From the IMG/VR virus record IMGVR_UViG_3300037963_003719, positions 44,335 to 108,334 of that record: a DNA stretch of 64,000 nucleotides. One strand, written 5' to 3'. Position 1 is the stretch's first letter. Each line of letters opens with the position of its first letter. The notes under the pieces are model-generated. The model saw only the letters and a list, made by a program, of their open reading frames with translations, was not told the DNA's origin and did no database searches. Source of the stretch: a virus. Shown here piece by piece: positions 30,380 to 44,660 of the stretch. The position numbers were made by a program, and so were the translations under genes.

Positions 30380-31480
30380 ATGCCTCGTATGTCTAACCTC
30401 AACGTAAACGAAGTCACTCATTACCTGACTGAAACCTATGGTAGTCAGATCAACACCGAGGCAGTTCTCGCAGCTGCTGATGTGTTTGATGTCTCTTATC
30501 CCACAATTTGCAAACGTCTTGAAATGTACAAAACTGGTCGTGGCAAGTGGGACCTGACTGTCCAAGAAAAATTCGAGCAGACCTATCAAGCACCTAGTGC
30601 TATGCCTGCTGTAGAGCAAAACCTTATTCCACAGACCGATGATTCCTTCGTCAAGTTCGGCAATTATAGCGACATTCGCAAGATTATCCAATCGAAAGTG
30701 TTTTATCCGACGTTCATTACAGGTCTTTCTGGCAACGGTAAAACGTTCTCTGTCGAACAAGCGTGTGCTCAACTCGGACGAGAACTCATCCGTGTAAACA
30801 TTACTATCGAAACCGATGAAGATGATCTTATTGGCGGTTTCCGCCTTGTTGATGGCAGCACCGTCTGGCACAATGGCCCAGTCGTGGAAGCACTCGAACG
30901 AGGTGCTATCCTGCTCCTTGACGAAATCGACCTTGCCTCTAATAAAATTCTCTGTCTCCAGTCAATTCTTGAAGGGAAAGGAGTATTCCTTAAAAAGATC
31001 GGCAAACGGGTTGACCCTGCAAGTGGATTCAACATCTTCGCCACAGCAAACACTAAAGGTAAAGGTTCAGACGACGGACGATTCATTGGAACTAACGTGC
31101 TCAACGAAGCATTCCTAGAGCGTTTCCCTGTTACCTTTGAGCAAGAGTATCCTTCTGCTTCTATCGAGAAGAAGATTCTCTCTGCCTCCTGTGATGATGA
31201 GAACTTTGTTTCTCACTTGGTTGACTGGGCAGGCATCATCCGTAAGACATTCTATGATGGTGGCATTGATGAGTTGATCTCAACTCGTCGTCTTGTTCAC
31301 ATCATTCGTGCTTACACCATTTTCTCTGATAAAGCAAAGGCAATCAAGGTCTGCCTGAATCGCTTTGACGATGAAACAAAACAATCTTTCCTTGAACTCT
31401 ATGATAAAGTCGATGCAGACATCCAACTTGAAGAATCTATGGAACCAGTACAAGAAGGTTCTATGGGAAACATTTCCTGA
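30380..31480 (+). CDS. cobS: CobS-like AAA+ ATPase (MoxR family)
   Basis: The 366-residue protein has a helical N-terminus (VNEVTHYLTETYGSQI), Walker A GLSGNGKT, Walker B ILLLDEIDLAS and sensor 1 FNIFATANT, with an arginine-finger region near EAFLERFPVTF. The frame opens earlier with non-ATG codons, so the ATG at 30380 is taken. Such ATPases remodel VWA partners, and the upstream cobT product is the obvious one. The 3' end overlaps pebS. Confidence 0.88.
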   Translation: MPRMSNLNVNEVTHYLTETYGSQINTEAVLAAADVFDVSYPTICKRLEMYKTGRGKWDLTVQEKFEQTYQAPSAMPAVEQNLIPQTDDSFVKFGNYSDIRKIIQSKVFYPTFITGLSGNGKTFSVEQACAQLGRELIRVNITIETDEDDLIGGFRLVDGSTVWHNGPVVEALERGAILLLDEIDLASNKILCLQSILEGKGVFLKKIGKRVDPASGFNIFATANTKGKGSDDGRFIGTNVLNEAFLERFPVTFEQEYPSASIEKKILSASCDDENFVSHLVDWAGIIRKTFYDGGIDELISTRRLVHIIRAYTIFSDKAKAIKVCLNRFDDETKQSFLELYDKVDADIQLEESMEPVQEGSMGNIS

Positions 31481-32051
31481 TCTTCAATTAGCAGATACCT
31501 GGGCACAGTGGTCTAACAAAGATGCTAACCTCTGTGCCAGTATCTACAAAAACCCCTACATCATCAAGTCCAGAGAAGTTGAGATATGGGATAAGAAATC
31601 CTCTATCTACAACAACATCATCTACCCAAAGACAGGAGCAAACCTACCTTGCTTTGGAATGGACTTGATGGGATTTTTTGAAAAGAAAGTCATTTTAGTA
31701 TTTGACTTCCAACATCCTGTAGAGAATCATTTGTTCTCAGTTCCTGGGTTGCCGAAAGCAGAAGGAACATTTAGATTCTTTGAACCAGGCAATCACTTCT
31801 CTGAGAATGTGTATGTTAGGAAATGCACAATGTCAGAAGTTAACAATTACCTTGATGACTTCCGTGCCTATTTACAAGCATACAAATCTATGCTAGAATC
31901 AGAGAAACCTAATGGGTTTGAAACATCTACTTACGGCGACTTCGACAAATACATGAAGAAGTTAGATCCCGTGAGTGGTTATCTTGACAGCAAGTTTGGC
32001 AAAGAGAAATCTGAGTCACTTGTAAATGATTTTTTATTTTGCTATGACTAA
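31413..32051 (+). CDS. pebS: Phycoerythrobilin synthase-type bilin reductase PebS
   Basis: This ferredoxin-dependent bilin reductase would convert biliverdin to phycoerythrobilin in two steps. The segment YPKTGANLPCFGMDLMGF followed by VFDFQHP closely matches phage PebS as I recall it. The active-site Asp residues fit D84 (FGMD) and the Asp in KKLDPVSGY. From 31413 the protein has 212 residues. In-frame ATGs at 31401 and 31371 would overlap cobS more but bring the length nearer to known PebS. No Shine-Dalgarno decides. It overlaps the next gene by 8 bases. Confidence 0.88.
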   Translation: MQTSNLKNLWNQYKKVLWETFPDLQLADTWAQWSNKDANLCASIYKNPYIIKSREVEIWDKKSSIYNNIIYPKTGANLPCFGMDLMGFFEKKVILVFDFQHPVENHLFSVPGLPKAEGTFRFFEPGNHFSENVYVRKCTMSEVNNYLDDFRAYLQAYKSMLESEKPNGFETSTYGDFDKYMKKLDPVSGYLDSKFGKEKSESLVNDFLFCYD

Positions 32052-33099: not shown

Positions 33100-34047
33100 A
33101 TGTCTCGTAATGAATTTCTCTGGGTCGAAAAATATCGACCTAAGAAGATTGATGATTGTATTCTTCCTGAAAGCACTAAGAATACATTCAATGAATTTTT
33201 AACCAGTGGGCAGATTCCTAATCTGCTTTTGTTTGGAACTGCTGGTATTGGTAAAACTACTGTTGCAAAAGCACTCTGTGAACAACTAGGTGCTGACTAT
33301 ATAATCATTAATGGATCCGACGAAGGACGTGCAATTGACACAATACGGAACAAGGTCAAAGATTTTGCTTCGACCCTCTCACTTTCTAGTGAATCCCAGC
33401 ACAAAGTCGTCATTGTTGACGAAGCTGACAACACAACCAGTGATGTACAACTCGCTCTACGGGCAAACATTGAGGCGTTTTATGGTAACTGTAGGTTTAT
33501 TTTCACCTGCAACTACAAAAACAAACTCATCGAACCCTTGCACTCCCGATGTGCAGTCGTCGATTTCTCCATCCCAGGAAAAGAAAAAAAGCAACTGGCA
33601 GGAACCTTCTTCGACCGTCTCAGGTTTATACTTGAGACAGAAGGTGTACAATATGATCCGAAAGTACTTCCACAAATAATCCTAAAGTTCTTCCCTGACT
33701 GGCGTCGTACACTCAATGAGTGTCAACGATATGCAGTTGGTGGAGTTATCGATAGTGGTATTCTTTCTAGTTTGTCTGATGTCAGGTTCAATGAACTGAC
33801 TAATGCATTGAAGGCAAAGAACTACACTACAGTTAAGAAATGGGTGTCTGGTAATCTGGACAATGAACCCTCTCATATTTTTAGGTCCATCTATGATAAT
33901 CTTTATCAGTGTCTGGAACCTAGGACTATTCCTCAGGCGGTATTGATTATTGGCAAGTATCAATACCAATCTGCATTTGTTGCAGATCAGGAAATCAATC
34001 TACTTGCTGCCCTTACTGAAATGATGGTGGAGTGTGAATTCAAATGA
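33100..34047 (+). CDS. 44: Clamp loader large subunit gp44
   Basis: The 315-residue AAA+ ATPase (T4: 319) has WVEKYRPKKIDDC at the N-terminus, Walker A GTAGIGKTT, Walker B VVIVDEADN and sensor 1 CRFIFTCNYKNK. The arginine-finger motif appears as HSRC. With gp62 it loads gp45. In most relatives gene 62 follows directly; here two genes intervene, the first by ATGA overlap. Confidence 0.95.
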   Translation: MSRNEFLWVEKYRPKKIDDCILPESTKNTFNEFLTSGQIPNLLLFGTAGIGKTTVAKALCEQLGADYIIINGSDEGRAIDTIRNKVKDFASTLSLSSESQHKVVIVDEADNTTSDVQLALRANIEAFYGNCRFIFTCNYKNKLIEPLHSRCAVVDFSIPGKEKKQLAGTFFDRLRFILETEGVQYDPKVLPQIILKFFPDWRRTLNECQRYAVGGVIDSGILSSLSDVRFNELTNALKAKNYTTVKKWVSGNLDNEPSHIFRSIYDNLYQCLEPRTIPQAVLIIGKYQYQSAFVADQEINLLAALTEMMVECEFK

Positions 34048-34616
34048 ACGTAAATGTTAAAAAGTTATTTAAGACATTTGATTATAGTCGTGCAGACATA
34101 TGGATGTCTCGACATAGTTTTAAAAATGAATCATCAGAAGATAACTTTGATAATGGCAGAGCATTAGAAGAAATTATTCAGTGGGCATCACACCATCTTC
34201 TTTCCAGGGATCCTGGTAAAAATGGATATGATCTTCTTGCTATTGATGATACTACCTTTGAATGTAAAAAGGTTAACTTGAATTCTAAGAAACCAAAGTT
34301 TGTTATCAAGAATGCTCATCCTAGTTCAAAGAAACCACCAAAAATAGTTCTTGCTGATTACTATGTTTTGGGTGATTACAAACAAAGAAAAATTTTGGTA
34401 ATTCCCAAAAACAAAGTCAAGGTAGTTGCCACTGTAAAAGATACTGAGAAGTCAGATTACCACGGATATTTCCAGTGGACTCATCAAGACATTGTTTGGA
34501 TCGGTAATCCTGATTTACATGCTGAGCAATCTTGGGCAAGTATTAAGGGACAGGTTAGGGACTTGCTTTATCATAACAGTTGTGATACCATTGAACCCTC
34601 TAAAGTTTTACTATGA
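34044..34616 (+). CDS. Unknown protein, possible PD-(D/E)xK nuclease, coupled to Dam
   Basis: No family is recognised in this 190-residue protein. The segment GYDLLAIDDTTFECKKV contains D63, E73 and K75 in the spacing of a PD-(D/E)xK nuclease core, after a helix with E42-E43. A strand-rich, Lys-rich second half follows. It is joined by ATGA overlaps to gene 44 upstream and to a DNA adenine methylase downstream. The pair could be a restriction-modification-like unit, which is inference from motif and context. Confidence 0.6.
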   Translation: MNVNVKKLFKTFDYSRADIWMSRHSFKNESSEDNFDNGRALEEIIQWASHHLLSRDPGKNGYDLLAIDDTTFECKKVNLNSKKPKFVIKNAHPSSKKPPKIVLADYYVLGDYKQRKILVIPKNKVKVVATVKDTEKSDYHGYFQWTHQDIVWIGNPDLHAEQSWASIKGQVRDLLYHNSCDTIEPSKVLL

Positions 34617-35458
34617 AGTTGAAAACCCCATTGAGGTATCCTGGTGGAAAATCCAGGGCAGTTAATTTCTTAGACAAGCATCTCCCACAATTTGACAAGT
34701 TCTATGAACCATTCCTAGGTGGTGGTTCTATGGCACTCCACGTGACTCAGACCCGTCCTAGGACAGAGGTGTGGGTCAATGATCTTTACTACCCTTTGTA
34801 TTGCTTCTGGTTGTCTCTTCAGCAACATGGCAAGCGTCTTACGCATGACCTTCGAGAACTGAAGACAGAACTAGGTGAAAGTTTAGATGCCCATCGTGAG
34901 GCATTTGAGAATTCTAAAGCAGCATTGGTAGGAACAGATGAATATCAGATTGGATTTAACTTCTATGTTGTGAACAAGTGTTCATTCAGTGGATTATCTG
35001 AATCATCTTCTTTTAGTAAGATGGCGTCACAGCAGAACTTTACCTTCAGGGGTATTGATAAACTTCCATACATTTCTGAACTGATTCAATTCTGGAGAAT
35101 TACTAATCAGGATTATTCTGAATTGCTTTATGGCACTGATGCATTTGTATTTCTAGATCCTCCTTATGATATCAAGGATAACCTGTATGGTAAAAAAGGA
35201 TCTATGCACAAAGGTTTTGATCATGAACTCTTTGCTGCACAATGTAATAACAGTCAACAAAAATGTATGATTACCTACAACTCTGATGCATTTGTTAAGG
35301 AAAGATTTCCTGAATGGACTGCACAAGAATGGGATCTTACATATACCATGAGATCTACAACAACTTACACACGTGACCAAAAGAAACGTAAAGAACTTCT
35401 TTTAACTAATTATGAGCAAGTACAACCATCCCTTGACGGATTACTTAAAGACGATTAA
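34613..35458 (+). CDS. dam: DNA adenine methylase, Dam/D12 class
   Basis: The 281-residue protein has motif I TPLRYPGGKSRAVNF with FYEPFLGGGSM, catalytic motif IV as DPPY (FLDPPYDIKD), and an ending typical of Dam enzymes with a KELLLTNY strand. It transfers methyl groups from S-adenosylmethionine to N6 of adenine. The target sequence cannot be read from the protein. It overlaps the next gene (62) by 47 bases. Confidence 0.93.
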   Translation: MKLKTPLRYPGGKSRAVNFLDKHLPQFDKFYEPFLGGGSMALHVTQTRPRTEVWVNDLYYPLYCFWLSLQQHGKRLTHDLRELKTELGESLDAHREAFENSKAALVGTDEYQIGFNFYVVNKCSFSGLSESSSFSKMASQQNFTFRGIDKLPYISELIQFWRITNQDYSELLYGTDAFVFLDPPYDIKDNLYGKKGSMHKGFDHELFAAQCNNSQQKCMITYNSDAFVKERFPEWTAQEWDLTYTMRSTTTYTRDQKKRKELLLTNYEQVQPSLDGLLKDD

Positions 35459-35810
35459 TGAAACCAAAAACAATTTGATGGATGGTGATGATCCAGGTTG
35501 GGAAAAAGAATACCCTTCCTGGGTCATCACTAAGTGTTTGTCACATCATTATGACACGGTGTTGCTTGCGAATGAGATGAATCTCAACTCGCAACTTCCT
35601 AGTAAACTTCAGTATGATTTTTATATAAATATCGTTAGGAAGAGAAAGCGTTTCTCGCCCTGGGATAAGAAAGTAAAACTAGATGATCTTGAGTGTGTCA
35701 AGGAGTACTACAATTATAGTACCGAGAAGGCACAAGCAACTCTAAAGATACTAAATAAAAAACAAATTGAGTTTATTAAATTGAAATTAAACCGTGGAGG
35801 AAAAGCATAA
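35412..35810 (+). CDS. 62: Clamp loader small subunit gp62
   Basis: The 132-residue protein matches the short gp62 of cyanophages (T4: 187): NHPLTDYLKTINETKNNLM, VITKCLSHHYDTVLLANEMN and a basic RKRKRFSPWDKK segment. It anchors the gp44 ring to the clamp. Its start lies inside the dam 3' end, a sign that dam was inserted upstream and the junction rebuilt. Its stop touches the regA start. Confidence 0.88.
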   Translation: MSKYNHPLTDYLKTINETKNNLMDGDDPGWEKEYPSWVITKCLSHHYDTVLLANEMNLNSQLPSKLQYDFYINIVRKRKRFSPWDKKVKLDDLECVKEYYNYSTEKAQATLKILNKKQIEFIKLKLNRGGKA

Positions 35811-36241
35811 TGTCTCAAGTTGCTGAGGTTCAGTGGACTCGTGAAAGTATGGTAGAGGTGAAACTTTCTCAACCAGATGACTTTCTCAAAGTAAGAGAGA
35901 CCCTTTCTAGAATTGGGGTTGCCTCTCGTAAAGAAAAGAAATTGTATCAATCTTGCCATATTCTTCATAAGCAAGGTAAGTATTACATTGTACATTTTAA
36001 AGAATTGTTTGCTCTTGATGGTAAGACAGCAAACCTGACTCAGAATGATGTTCAGCGTCGTAATAGAATCACTCAACTTCTTTCTGATTGGGGATTGATT
36101 TCTATTGTTAAGACAGAAGAGGTTCTTGATATTGCACCACTTAATCAAATCAAAGTTCTTTCTTATAAAGAGAAAGGCGAGTGGGAACTGGAATCAAAAT
36201 ATAACATCGGAAAAAAGAAAACTGCTCCAGCAGCATCATAA
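35810..36241 (+). CDS. regA: Translational repressor RegA
   Basis: The 143-residue RNA-binding protein (T4: 122) contains VEVKLSQPDDFLKVRETLSR and KLYQSCHILHKQGKYYIVHF, the conserved RegA core. In T4 it represses early mRNAs, including 45, 44 and 62, by covering their start sites. Position after 62 is conserved. Confidence 0.93.
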   Translation: MSQVAEVQWTRESMVEVKLSQPDDFLKVRETLSRIGVASRKEKKLYQSCHILHKQGKYYIVHFKELFALDGKTANLTQNDVQRRNRITQLLSDWGLISIVKTEEVLDIAPLNQIKVLSYKEKGEWELESKYNIGKKKTAPAAS

Positions 36242-42187: not shown

Positions 42188-44660
42188 TGTTTTTTTGACT
42201 GGAGATAAAATTCTCTATATTGGATACGAAGATGGTCAACGTGTCCAGTATGAGCAGAGTTTTTCTCCAGTTCTTTTTGCTCAGTGTAATAAGAAAACAG
42301 AATACAAAACTCTTGAGGGCAGTTATGCTCATAAACTAGAGTTTAATTCTGTTAAGGATGCCAGACAATTTATTGATGAGTACAAACAGGTAGAGAACTT
42401 TAAGATCTACGGTAATGACAGATTTCTCTATCAGTATATTAGTACTGAGTTTCCTGAAGAACGTATTGAATATGACACTACACAATTAAAGGTCTACACA
42501 ATTGATATTGAGACCACTTCTGAGAATGGTTTTCCTAATGTTGGGGAAACTGCAGAAGAGATTCTTTGTCTTACCATCAAAGATTTTACCAGTAAGAAAC
42601 TAATCGTATGGGGAACACGTGAGTATCAACATTCACGTGATGATGTTGAGTATCGTGTCTTCTGGAAAGAAGAAGATATGCTCAAAGATTTTCTAGCATG
42701 GTGGGCACAAAACACACCTGATATCCTTACTGGTTGGAATGTAAAACTGTTCGACGTACCATACATTTGTCGTCGAGTAGAACGTATACTTTCTTCCAAG
42801 TATATGAAGTCCCTTTCTCCATGGAATAAAGTATATGAAAAAGAAGTTGAAATCAAAGGACGTAATCAGTTTGTTTACGATATCATTGGTGTCAGTGTTC
42901 TTGACTATCTTGATCTTTATCAGAAGTTTACATATACTAATCAAGAGTCCTATCGACTGGATCATATTGCCAGTGTGGAACTAGGTCAAAAGAAACTAGA
43001 TCACTCTGAGTTTGAAACCTTCAAAGATTTCTATACTCAAGATTGGCAAAAGTTTGTAACTTATAACATCCATGACGTGGAACTGGTTGACCGTCTTGAA
43101 GATAAGATGAAATTGATTGATCTCGCTGTCAATCTTGCCTATGATGCTAAGGTCAATTTTGAAGATGTCTACTACCAGGTACGTATGTGGGATAGCATCA
43201 TCTATAATTATCTTACACCTAAAGGTATTGTTGTACCCCCTAACGAAAGAAATGACAAAGATGCAAAGTACGCTGGTGCGTATGTTAAAGAACCTGTTCC
43301 AGGACTTTATGAGTGGGTGGTTAGTTTTGACCTCAACTCCCTATACCCTCACCTCATTATGCAGTACAACATCTCGCCAGAAACGCTACTACCTACGAGA
43401 CACCCGTCAGCAACGGTAGATAGAGTTCTGGAACAAGAGATCACCATTGATGGTGAGTATTGTGTATGTGCCAACGGGGCACAGTATAGAAAAGATGTTC
43501 GTGGTTTTCTTCCAGAACTTATGGAGAAGATCTATAACGAACGTAAGATCTATAAGAAAAAGATGCTCCAAGCAAAACAAGAAAATGAAAAGAATCCTAG
43601 TCCACAATTGGTCAAGGACATTTCAAAATTCAATAACATCCAGATGGCACGTAAGATTCAACTTAACAGTGCTTATGGTGCTATTGGGAATCAGTATTTC
43701 AGGTATTACAAGCTTGCCAACGCAGAGGCGATCACACTTTCTGGTCAGGTCTCCATCCGTTGGATTGAGAACAAGATGAATGCCTACCTAAATAACCTGT
43801 TAAAAACGGAGGATGTAGATTATGTCATCGCATCTGACACTGACTCAATCTATCTTAATCTTGGACCTCTCGTTACTAAATTTTTTAGTAATCGTATTGG
43901 CGATAAAGCAGCAATTGTCTCTATACTTAATAAGGTCTGCCAAGAAAAACTGGAACCTTTTATTGAATGTTCATATAAGGAACTTGCGGATTACGTTTCG
44001 GCATATGATCAAAAAATGATTATGAAACGTGAGAACATCGCTGACAAAGGTATTTGGACTGCCAAGAAGCGATACATTCTCAACGTGTGGGACAGCGAAG
44101 GTGTTCGCTATGCAGAACCAAAACTCAAGATGATGGGTATTGAGGCAGTTAAATCTTCTACACCTGCACCGTGTAGAAATAAAATTAAAGAAGCACTCAA
44201 TATTATCATGACTCAAACTGAAGAAGATGTCATACGATTCATTGACAAATTTAAAGAAGAGTTCTTTAGTATGCCACCAGAGGACATTGCATTCCCTCGT
44301 AGCGTCAACGGGTTGACAAAATGGTCAGATCCTGTTACGCTATACAAGAAAAGTTGTCCCATTCACGTGAGGGGAGCATTGCTCTACAATTTTCAATTGA
44401 AGAAGCGTAAACTGACTTATAAGTATCCTTTGATTCAAGAAGGAGAAAAGATTAAGTTCTGTTACTTACAAAAACCAAACACTGTTGGAGAGAATGTAAT
44501 CTCATTCATCTCTAACTTCCCTACAGAAATCGACATTCATAAGAACGTCGATTACAAATTGCAGTTTGAAAAATCATTCCTATACCCACTCAAGATTATT
44601 CTTGATGCTATTGGATGGAAAACTGAAAAAGAAGTTAACCTGGAGTTTTTATTCGGATGA
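42168..44660 (+). CDS. 43: DNA polymerase gp43
   Basis: The 830-residue family B polymerase (T4: 898) carries exonuclease motifs DIETTS, NVKLFDVPYI and YNIHDVELVD. Its polymerase motifs are A (DLNSLYPHL), B (KIQLNSAYGAIGN) and C (SDTDSIY). Two ATGs in tandem (42168, 42171) could start it. It replicates the phage genome with gp45, 44/62, 41 and 61. Confidence 0.97.
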   Translation: MMKFYSNVFLTGDKILYIGYEDGQRVQYEQSFSPVLFAQCNKKTEYKTLEGSYAHKLEFNSVKDARQFIDEYKQVENFKIYGNDRFLYQYISTEFPEERIEYDTTQLKVYTIDIETTSENGFPNVGETAEEILCLTIKDFTSKKLIVWGTREYQHSRDDVEYRVFWKEEDMLKDFLAWWAQNTPDILTGWNVKLFDVPYICRRVERILSSKYMKSLSPWNKVYEKEVEIKGRNQFVYDIIGVSVLDYLDLYQKFTYTNQESYRLDHIASVELGQKKLDHSEFETFKDFYTQDWQKFVTYNIHDVELVDRLEDKMKLIDLAVNLAYDAKVNFEDVYYQVRMWDSIIYNYLTPKGIVVPPNERNDKDAKYAGAYVKEPVPGLYEWVVSFDLNSLYPHLIMQYNISPETLLPTRHPSATVDRVLEQEITIDGEYCVCANGAQYRKDVRGFLPELMEKIYNERKIYKKKMLQAKQENEKNPSPQLVKDISKFNNIQMARKIQLNSAYGAIGNQYFRYYKLANAEAITLSGQVSIRWIENKMNAYLNNLLKTEDVDYVIASDTDSIYLNLGPLVTKFFSNRIGDKAAIVSILNKVCQEKLEPFIECSYKELADYVSAYDQKMIMKRENIADKGIWTAKKRYILNVWDSEGVRYAEPKLKMMGIEAVKSSTPAPCRNKIKEALNIIMTQTEEDVIRFIDKFKEEFFSMPPEDIAFPRSVNGLTKWSDPVTLYKKSCPIHVRGALLYNFQLKKRKLTYKYPLIQEGEKIKFCYLQKPNTVGENVISFISNFPTEIDIHKNVDYKLQFEKSFLYPLKIILDAIGWKTEKEVNLEFLFG

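Follow-up and report, generated by a model that had tools for sequence, protein, structure and literature searches.

The clamp-loader operon of the marine cyanophage studied here contains, between gp44 and a DNA methylase gene, an open reading frame (ORF) for a 190-residue protein that is very probably a PD-(D/E)xK nuclease, judging from its conserved residues and a predicted structure. The site that it occupies is an exchange slot, which holds one of three diverged branches of the same protein family, holds other apparent nucleases or is empty. A freestanding, homing-type mobile nuclease is the explanation that we favour for this protein, with about even confidence, because of the conserved D...ExK residues, the fold resemblance, the presence of several nuclease families in the slot and the separate recombination of the gene. 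Apparent nucleases of several folds interchange here beside essential genes, and the slot offers a natural test bed for phage nucleases as drivers of gene exchange versus exchangeable restriction weapons.

The window analysed is a 64-kb stretch out of a 108-kb viral record, and its gene content is that of a T4-like cyanophage. The gene order is gp45, gp44, the 190-residue ORF, a D12-class methylase, gp62 and regA. On the plus strand, gp44 (33100-34047; clamp-loader large subunit, AAA+; phrog_168 4e-128, Gp44_lid), the 3' end of which bounds the exchange slot on the left, is followed by the putative PD-(D/E)xK endonuclease ORF (34044-34616), which has an ATGA overlap at each end. Next on this strand are the D12/alpha-class DNA methyltransferase (34613-35458; PF02086 2.4e-26, phrog_56 6e-81, DPPY motif), named 'dam' in cyanophage annotation, gp62 (35412-35810; clamp-loader small subunit; PF16790 2.5e-10, phrog_225 2e-46) and the translational repressor regA (35810-36241; PF01818 2.5e-45), which is the core neighbour on the right-hand side. 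Coordinates and profile matches bear out the first-pass annotation in placing the ORF and the methylase between gp44 and gp62 and in starting gene 62 inside dam, 47 bases within the methylase gene. Its description of all joints as ATGA holds for gp44/ORF and ORF/methylase, both 4-base overlaps, but not for the rest: gp62 and regA overlap by one base (TAATG), and gp45 and gp44 are separated by a short gap. An auxiliary metabolic gene for a ferredoxin-dependent bilin reductase (31365-32051; PF05996 1.5e-15) is located upstream of gp45.

Sequence comparison makes the 190-residue protein a member of a new, essentially uncharacterised cyanophage family. Two scans of viral contigs identified 15 IMG/VR loci carrying a gene of this family, in three branches with 59-100% identity, and at all 15 loci it lies in the same slot between gp44 and the methylase. 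The diverged branches Y and Z, with proteins of 172-189 residues, fill the slot in close relatives that do not have the window-type gene (X). Profile-to-profile comparison of X with a diverged branch gave 93.8% probability and E = 1.7e-7 with the motifs in register, and the diverged-branch profile recovers the window gene at E = 8e-7 as its sole match within the 108-kb record. The 190-residue ORF itself has no match among 50,697 phage records. A profile search of the same records found one relative only, SSM1_072 of cyanophage S-SM1 (43522-44034; hypothetical protein, T4-GC 1436), at E = 6e-17 and with all invariant residues kept. The S-SM1 protein is also the best Foldseek match among viral models (BFVD; E = 2.5e-8, TM 0.69/0.76), and SSM1_072 is presumably UniProt E3SI79, as the phage and the length of 170 residues indicate. 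It differs in its location, which is after a helicase gene and 85 kb from the gp44-methylase slot (the S-SM1 methylase is at 129339). Sequence searches of Pfam, PHROGs, PADLOC, NCBIfam and PDB returned nothing usable for the 190-residue protein, the match to phrog_14313 being weak (0.004-0.011). Bacterial and archaeal genomes, scanned twice, gave no relative, and none of the five further contigs matched by a DNA pattern for DPGKxGYDL was homologous. A putative nuclease family is now defined, with a single unannotated relative among the deposited phage records searched.

In an alignment of 23 sequences of 15-93% identity, only six residues do not vary (E42, G61, D63, E73, K75 and N90), and the addition of the S-SM1 relative leaves this set unchanged. 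The pattern D63...E73-C74-K75 had been singled out beforehand in the window protein, with loss of D63, E73 or K75 in homologues named as a reason to abandon it. All four residues are present; D63, E73 and K75 are invariant down to 15% identity, whereas C74 is variable. The chance of six random positions out of 190 including three named in advance is ~2e-5, in a calculation that ignores residue preferences. Together with the invariant glutamate E42 (codon 34167-34169, plus strand), the putative catalytic aspartate D63 (34230-34232, plus strand) and the ExK motif of E73-C74-K75 (34260-34268, plus strand) correspond to the PD-(D/E)xK triad and its preceding helix glutamate.

The first AlphaFold model, built from 8 close sequences, had a pLDDT of 50.8 and its Foldseek matches were meaningless. 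With the 23-sequence alignment the pLDDT is 77.8 and the pTM 0.75; E42 falls in the first core helix (residues 37-48) and ExK on a predicted strand (residues 71-76). The PD-(D/E)xK enzymes Eco15I, I-Ssp6803I, PvuII and NhoI appear at ranks 3-12 of the Foldseek search against the PDB (prob 0.54-0.96), although two unrelated folds rank above them, no PDB match is under 0.001 and the nuclease matches are weak (E about 1.5e-2, TM about 0.3-0.4). The better model hence resembles several nucleases, if weakly, where a missing nuclease core had been set as the outcome speaking against the idea. In an alignment of the family profile to PvuII, whose sequence was confirmed against PDB chains, D58/E68/K70 of PvuII are in register with D63/E73/K75 over 29 columns; the hhalign probability is only 5%, and the alignment score is higher than in 200 of 200 shuffles. 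The invariant triad together with the Foldseek matches makes assignment as a nuclease almost certain. That the protein is not a nuclease but an accessory protein whose D...ExK pattern arose by chance is highly improbable. In favour of this stand the poor first model and the failure to match any solved nuclease, or any nuclease family of Pfam, at the sequence level; against it, the residues that the family keeps down to 15% identity are those of PD-(D/E)xK enzymes, four such enzymes are matched by the better model and the PvuII residues align in register above all shuffles.

Genes 44 and 62 had been described as usually adjacent, which does not hold for cyanophages, where a methylase commonly lies between them. 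The window methylase matches 449 phage records, 429 of which cover at least 80% of the query, and a methylase is present at most of the gp44-gp62 junctions inspected, including those of P-RSM4, S-CAM3, S-P4, P-HM2, ACG-2014d, S-RIM12, ACG-2014a, S-RIM2, S-RIM32, S-MbCM6 and S-SM1; the junctions of S-CAM9 and ACG-2014f are without it. In the comparison of junctions among relatives that had been proposed, the methylase is common without the 190-residue ORF, the occupants of the slot vary, and the lineage-specific insert is the ORF, not the methylase. Junctions with a methylase usually hold other small genes in the slot. Occupants of the slot outside the family include a PDDEXK_5 protein (PF11645 9.8e-8), apparent nucleases of HNH-like, GIY-YIG-like and UPF0102-like type and, in P-RSM4, the repair endonuclease DenV; several of these are assigned only by weak matches or by eye. 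The slot of S-SM1 (L200:8734-9186) holds a 150-residue HNH-like protein annotated as hypothetical.

The nuclease gene recombines separately from the neighbouring methylase, which is an ordinary cyanophage gene with an inheritance of its own. Between the window and locus L005 the synonymous difference is 0.19 in the X gene, as against 0.46 in gp44, 0.63 in the methylase and 0.50 in gp62; movement of nuclease and methylase as one cassette was rejected on these distances. Sliding identity between the same two loci rises to 90-94% in the final ~200 bp of gp44; the high-identity tract continues into the nuclease gene and stops near the 3' end of the nuclease gene, before the methylase. Loci L006 and L011 are 99-100% identical in methylase, gp62 and regA and 85% in X, and the breakpoint falls within the 3' end of the X gene. 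The gp44 proteins are identical in L008 and L009, which carry X, and in L132, which carries a Z-type gene. Near-identical methylases are found behind diverged, mutually replacing nucleases, and at least 17 changes of occupant are required on the gp44 tree. This pattern agrees with published phage nuclease genes, which are found near essential genes and at the boundaries of genetic exchange (PMC10448857).

A homing-type nuclease would account for such an exchange as follows. During co-infection, the nuclease would make a site-specific break in a phage whose slot is empty or differently occupied, and repair of the break by way of the conserved sequences on either side, gp44 and the genes downstream, would copy the nuclease gene across, in a manner resembling intronless homing and marker exclusion in T4. 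DNA cleavage, a target site and cleavage-driven exchange are what we infer here, and passive recombination through the conserved neighbours, with no cleavage, could also be behind the exchange. The freestanding homing endonucleases Seg and Mob of T4 and F-CphI of cyanophages lie at core-gene junctions and are associated with localised exchange (PMC3037559, PMC6083498, PMC10448857). The present gene is similarly situated between core genes of a T4-like phage, but F-CphI has an Endo VII motif and not PD-(D/E)xK. A precedent for the PD-(D/E)xK fold in homing is I-Ssp6803I of cyanobacteria, likewise a small nuclease (Foldseek prob up to 0.87), which is however intron-encoded, whereas the 190-residue protein is freestanding; no sequence similarity between the two was found. 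PvuII has the D-x9-ExK spacing in common with our protein and is matched in Foldseek, although with a TM of about 0.3, and the 190-residue protein differs in having no fixed methylase partner. The N-terminal domain of NhoI and Eco15I gives Foldseek prob up to 0.96, but these are methylation-dependent restriction enzymes, and no sequence similarity to them was found.

The designation of the methylase as Dam-type is loose: the protein is closer to M.CbeI than to GATC Dam. The nearest solved structure is M.CbeI (7m6b; E = 4e-49, residues 3-268), compared with 3e-4 for DpnM (2dpm), and the window methylase has the full-length similarity and DPPY motif of an M.CbeI-like alpha-class enzyme, while its score of 91.3 bits with TIGR00571 (Dam) is below the cut-off of 114.85 for GATC Dam. 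M.CbeI of C. bescii is an alpha-class, DPPY-containing N4-cytosine methylase of GGCC and adjoins its cognate restriction gene CbeI; for the phage enzyme, GGCC/m4C activity is a prediction. GATC is near its normal frequency in the window (328 observed, 355 expected). AGCC/GGCT (9/141, observed/expected), GGCC (4/33) and AGCT (31/152) are depleted, so that RGCY, which comprises these sites, occurs 44 times against 326 expected. RGCY is the CviJI site of chlorella viruses. Among 94 loci with a methylase the median observed/expected ratio of RGCY is 0.22, as against 0.76 among 19 loci without one. For 50-kb stretches the ratio is 0.22-0.23 in S-SM1, 0.43 in P-HM2 and 0.43 in S-CAM3, all methylase-positive, versus 1.12 in S-CAM9 and 0.73 in ACG-2014f, both methylase-negative. 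When corrected for phylogeny, the relation between methylase and RGCY depletion points the same way but is not significant, with about 3 of 7 independent pairs in agreement and almost none opposite. These observations suggest a GGCC/RGCY-type specificity for the window methylase, and the 'dam' genes of cyanophages are probably not GATC methylases, a side result that touches hundreds of deposited annotations. CCGG is absent from the window (33 expected), and most of the cyanophages checked likewise have few or no CCGG sites, with the exception of ACG-2014f (46/46).

The first-pass annotation had proposed that the ORF and the methylase may be a nuclease and its protecting methylase or else a methyl-dependent regulator of replication. 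The nuclease half of the former reading stands, but a fixed pairing does not: the methylase occurs widely in phages that lack the nuclease, the separate recombination and the S-SM1 member 85 kb from the methylase leave a fixed restriction-modification cassette unsupported, and the linked joint inheritance of nuclease and methylase that marks type II restriction-modification is not seen. A looser arrangement is the main rival, though less likely than homing: a resident methylase, probably of RGCY/GGCC type, would protect the phage, and swappable nucleases of the same specificity would cut unmethylated DNA of hosts or rivals, the nuclease being swappable alone because the methylase would be present in each recipient beforehand. 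The methylase is indeed found in each of the 31 non-redundant carriers whose slot could be decided, and in S-SM1. Of 94 non-redundant loci with the methylase 31 are carriers, and of 19 without it none is (Fisher 0.0015, with rows that are not independent). A methylase-dependent nuclease would give the same association, and in the sample selected by gp44 only it is not significant (10/50 versus 0/17, p = 0.055); the counts moreover ignore phylogeny. At metagenomic loci with a complete slot, family members abut the 5' side of the methylase gene (gap mostly -4 to 14 bases) or are separated from it by a single 152-residue gene, and they adjoin it even where unrelated genes follow gp44 (L099, L101, L110, L114, L165). 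The PvuII-like core and the RGCY depletion of methylase-positive phages also fit swappable restriction nucleases; this depletion is however equally strong in methylase-positive phages without family nucleases, and the nuclease was therefore rejected as its cause; the distant position of the S-SM1 relative argues against a partnership with the methylase. That the slot as a whole is a modular weapon bay, with an RGCY-type resident methylase and nucleases from diverged or unrelated families exchanged like cartridges for use against host or competitor DNA, we regard as doubtful; if true, it would be a restriction-modification system with a mobile gene as its nuclease half.

A phage nuclease for host-DNA degradation, recombination or repair, unconnected with methylation or homing and expressed early from the replication operon, seems unlikely. 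The surrounding operon is indeed a DNA-replication operon, the P-RSM4 slot holds a repair enzyme and a helicase gene precedes the S-SM1 relative; the sporadic presence of the family and the speed with which diverged or unrelated genes take its place are, however, unlike a housekeeping function.

Other genes in and around the operon also vary. Six methylase-negative loci (S-CAM9, L022:4482-5633; L058; L060; L066; L092; L119) have a protein of 352-385 residues between gp44 and gp62, and that of S-CAM9 has a match to Druantia DruA (PF14236, 7.8e-10). A protein of 150-152 residues (L013:1604-2062; L159:1925-2377; also L082, L105, L113, L117, L126 and L127) separates nuclease and methylase in some phages, whereas other phages have it between gp45 and gp44; it too therefore moves. 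A relative of the window has, a short way downstream of the operon, an extra predicted DNA methylase that is of a different type (L016:5234-6115; assigned by eye, TSPPY). In S-CAM3, regA is directly followed by an annotated type II restriction enzyme gene and this by a second DNA methylase (L002:5818-7088), and these two genes are a candidate for a true restriction-modification pair.
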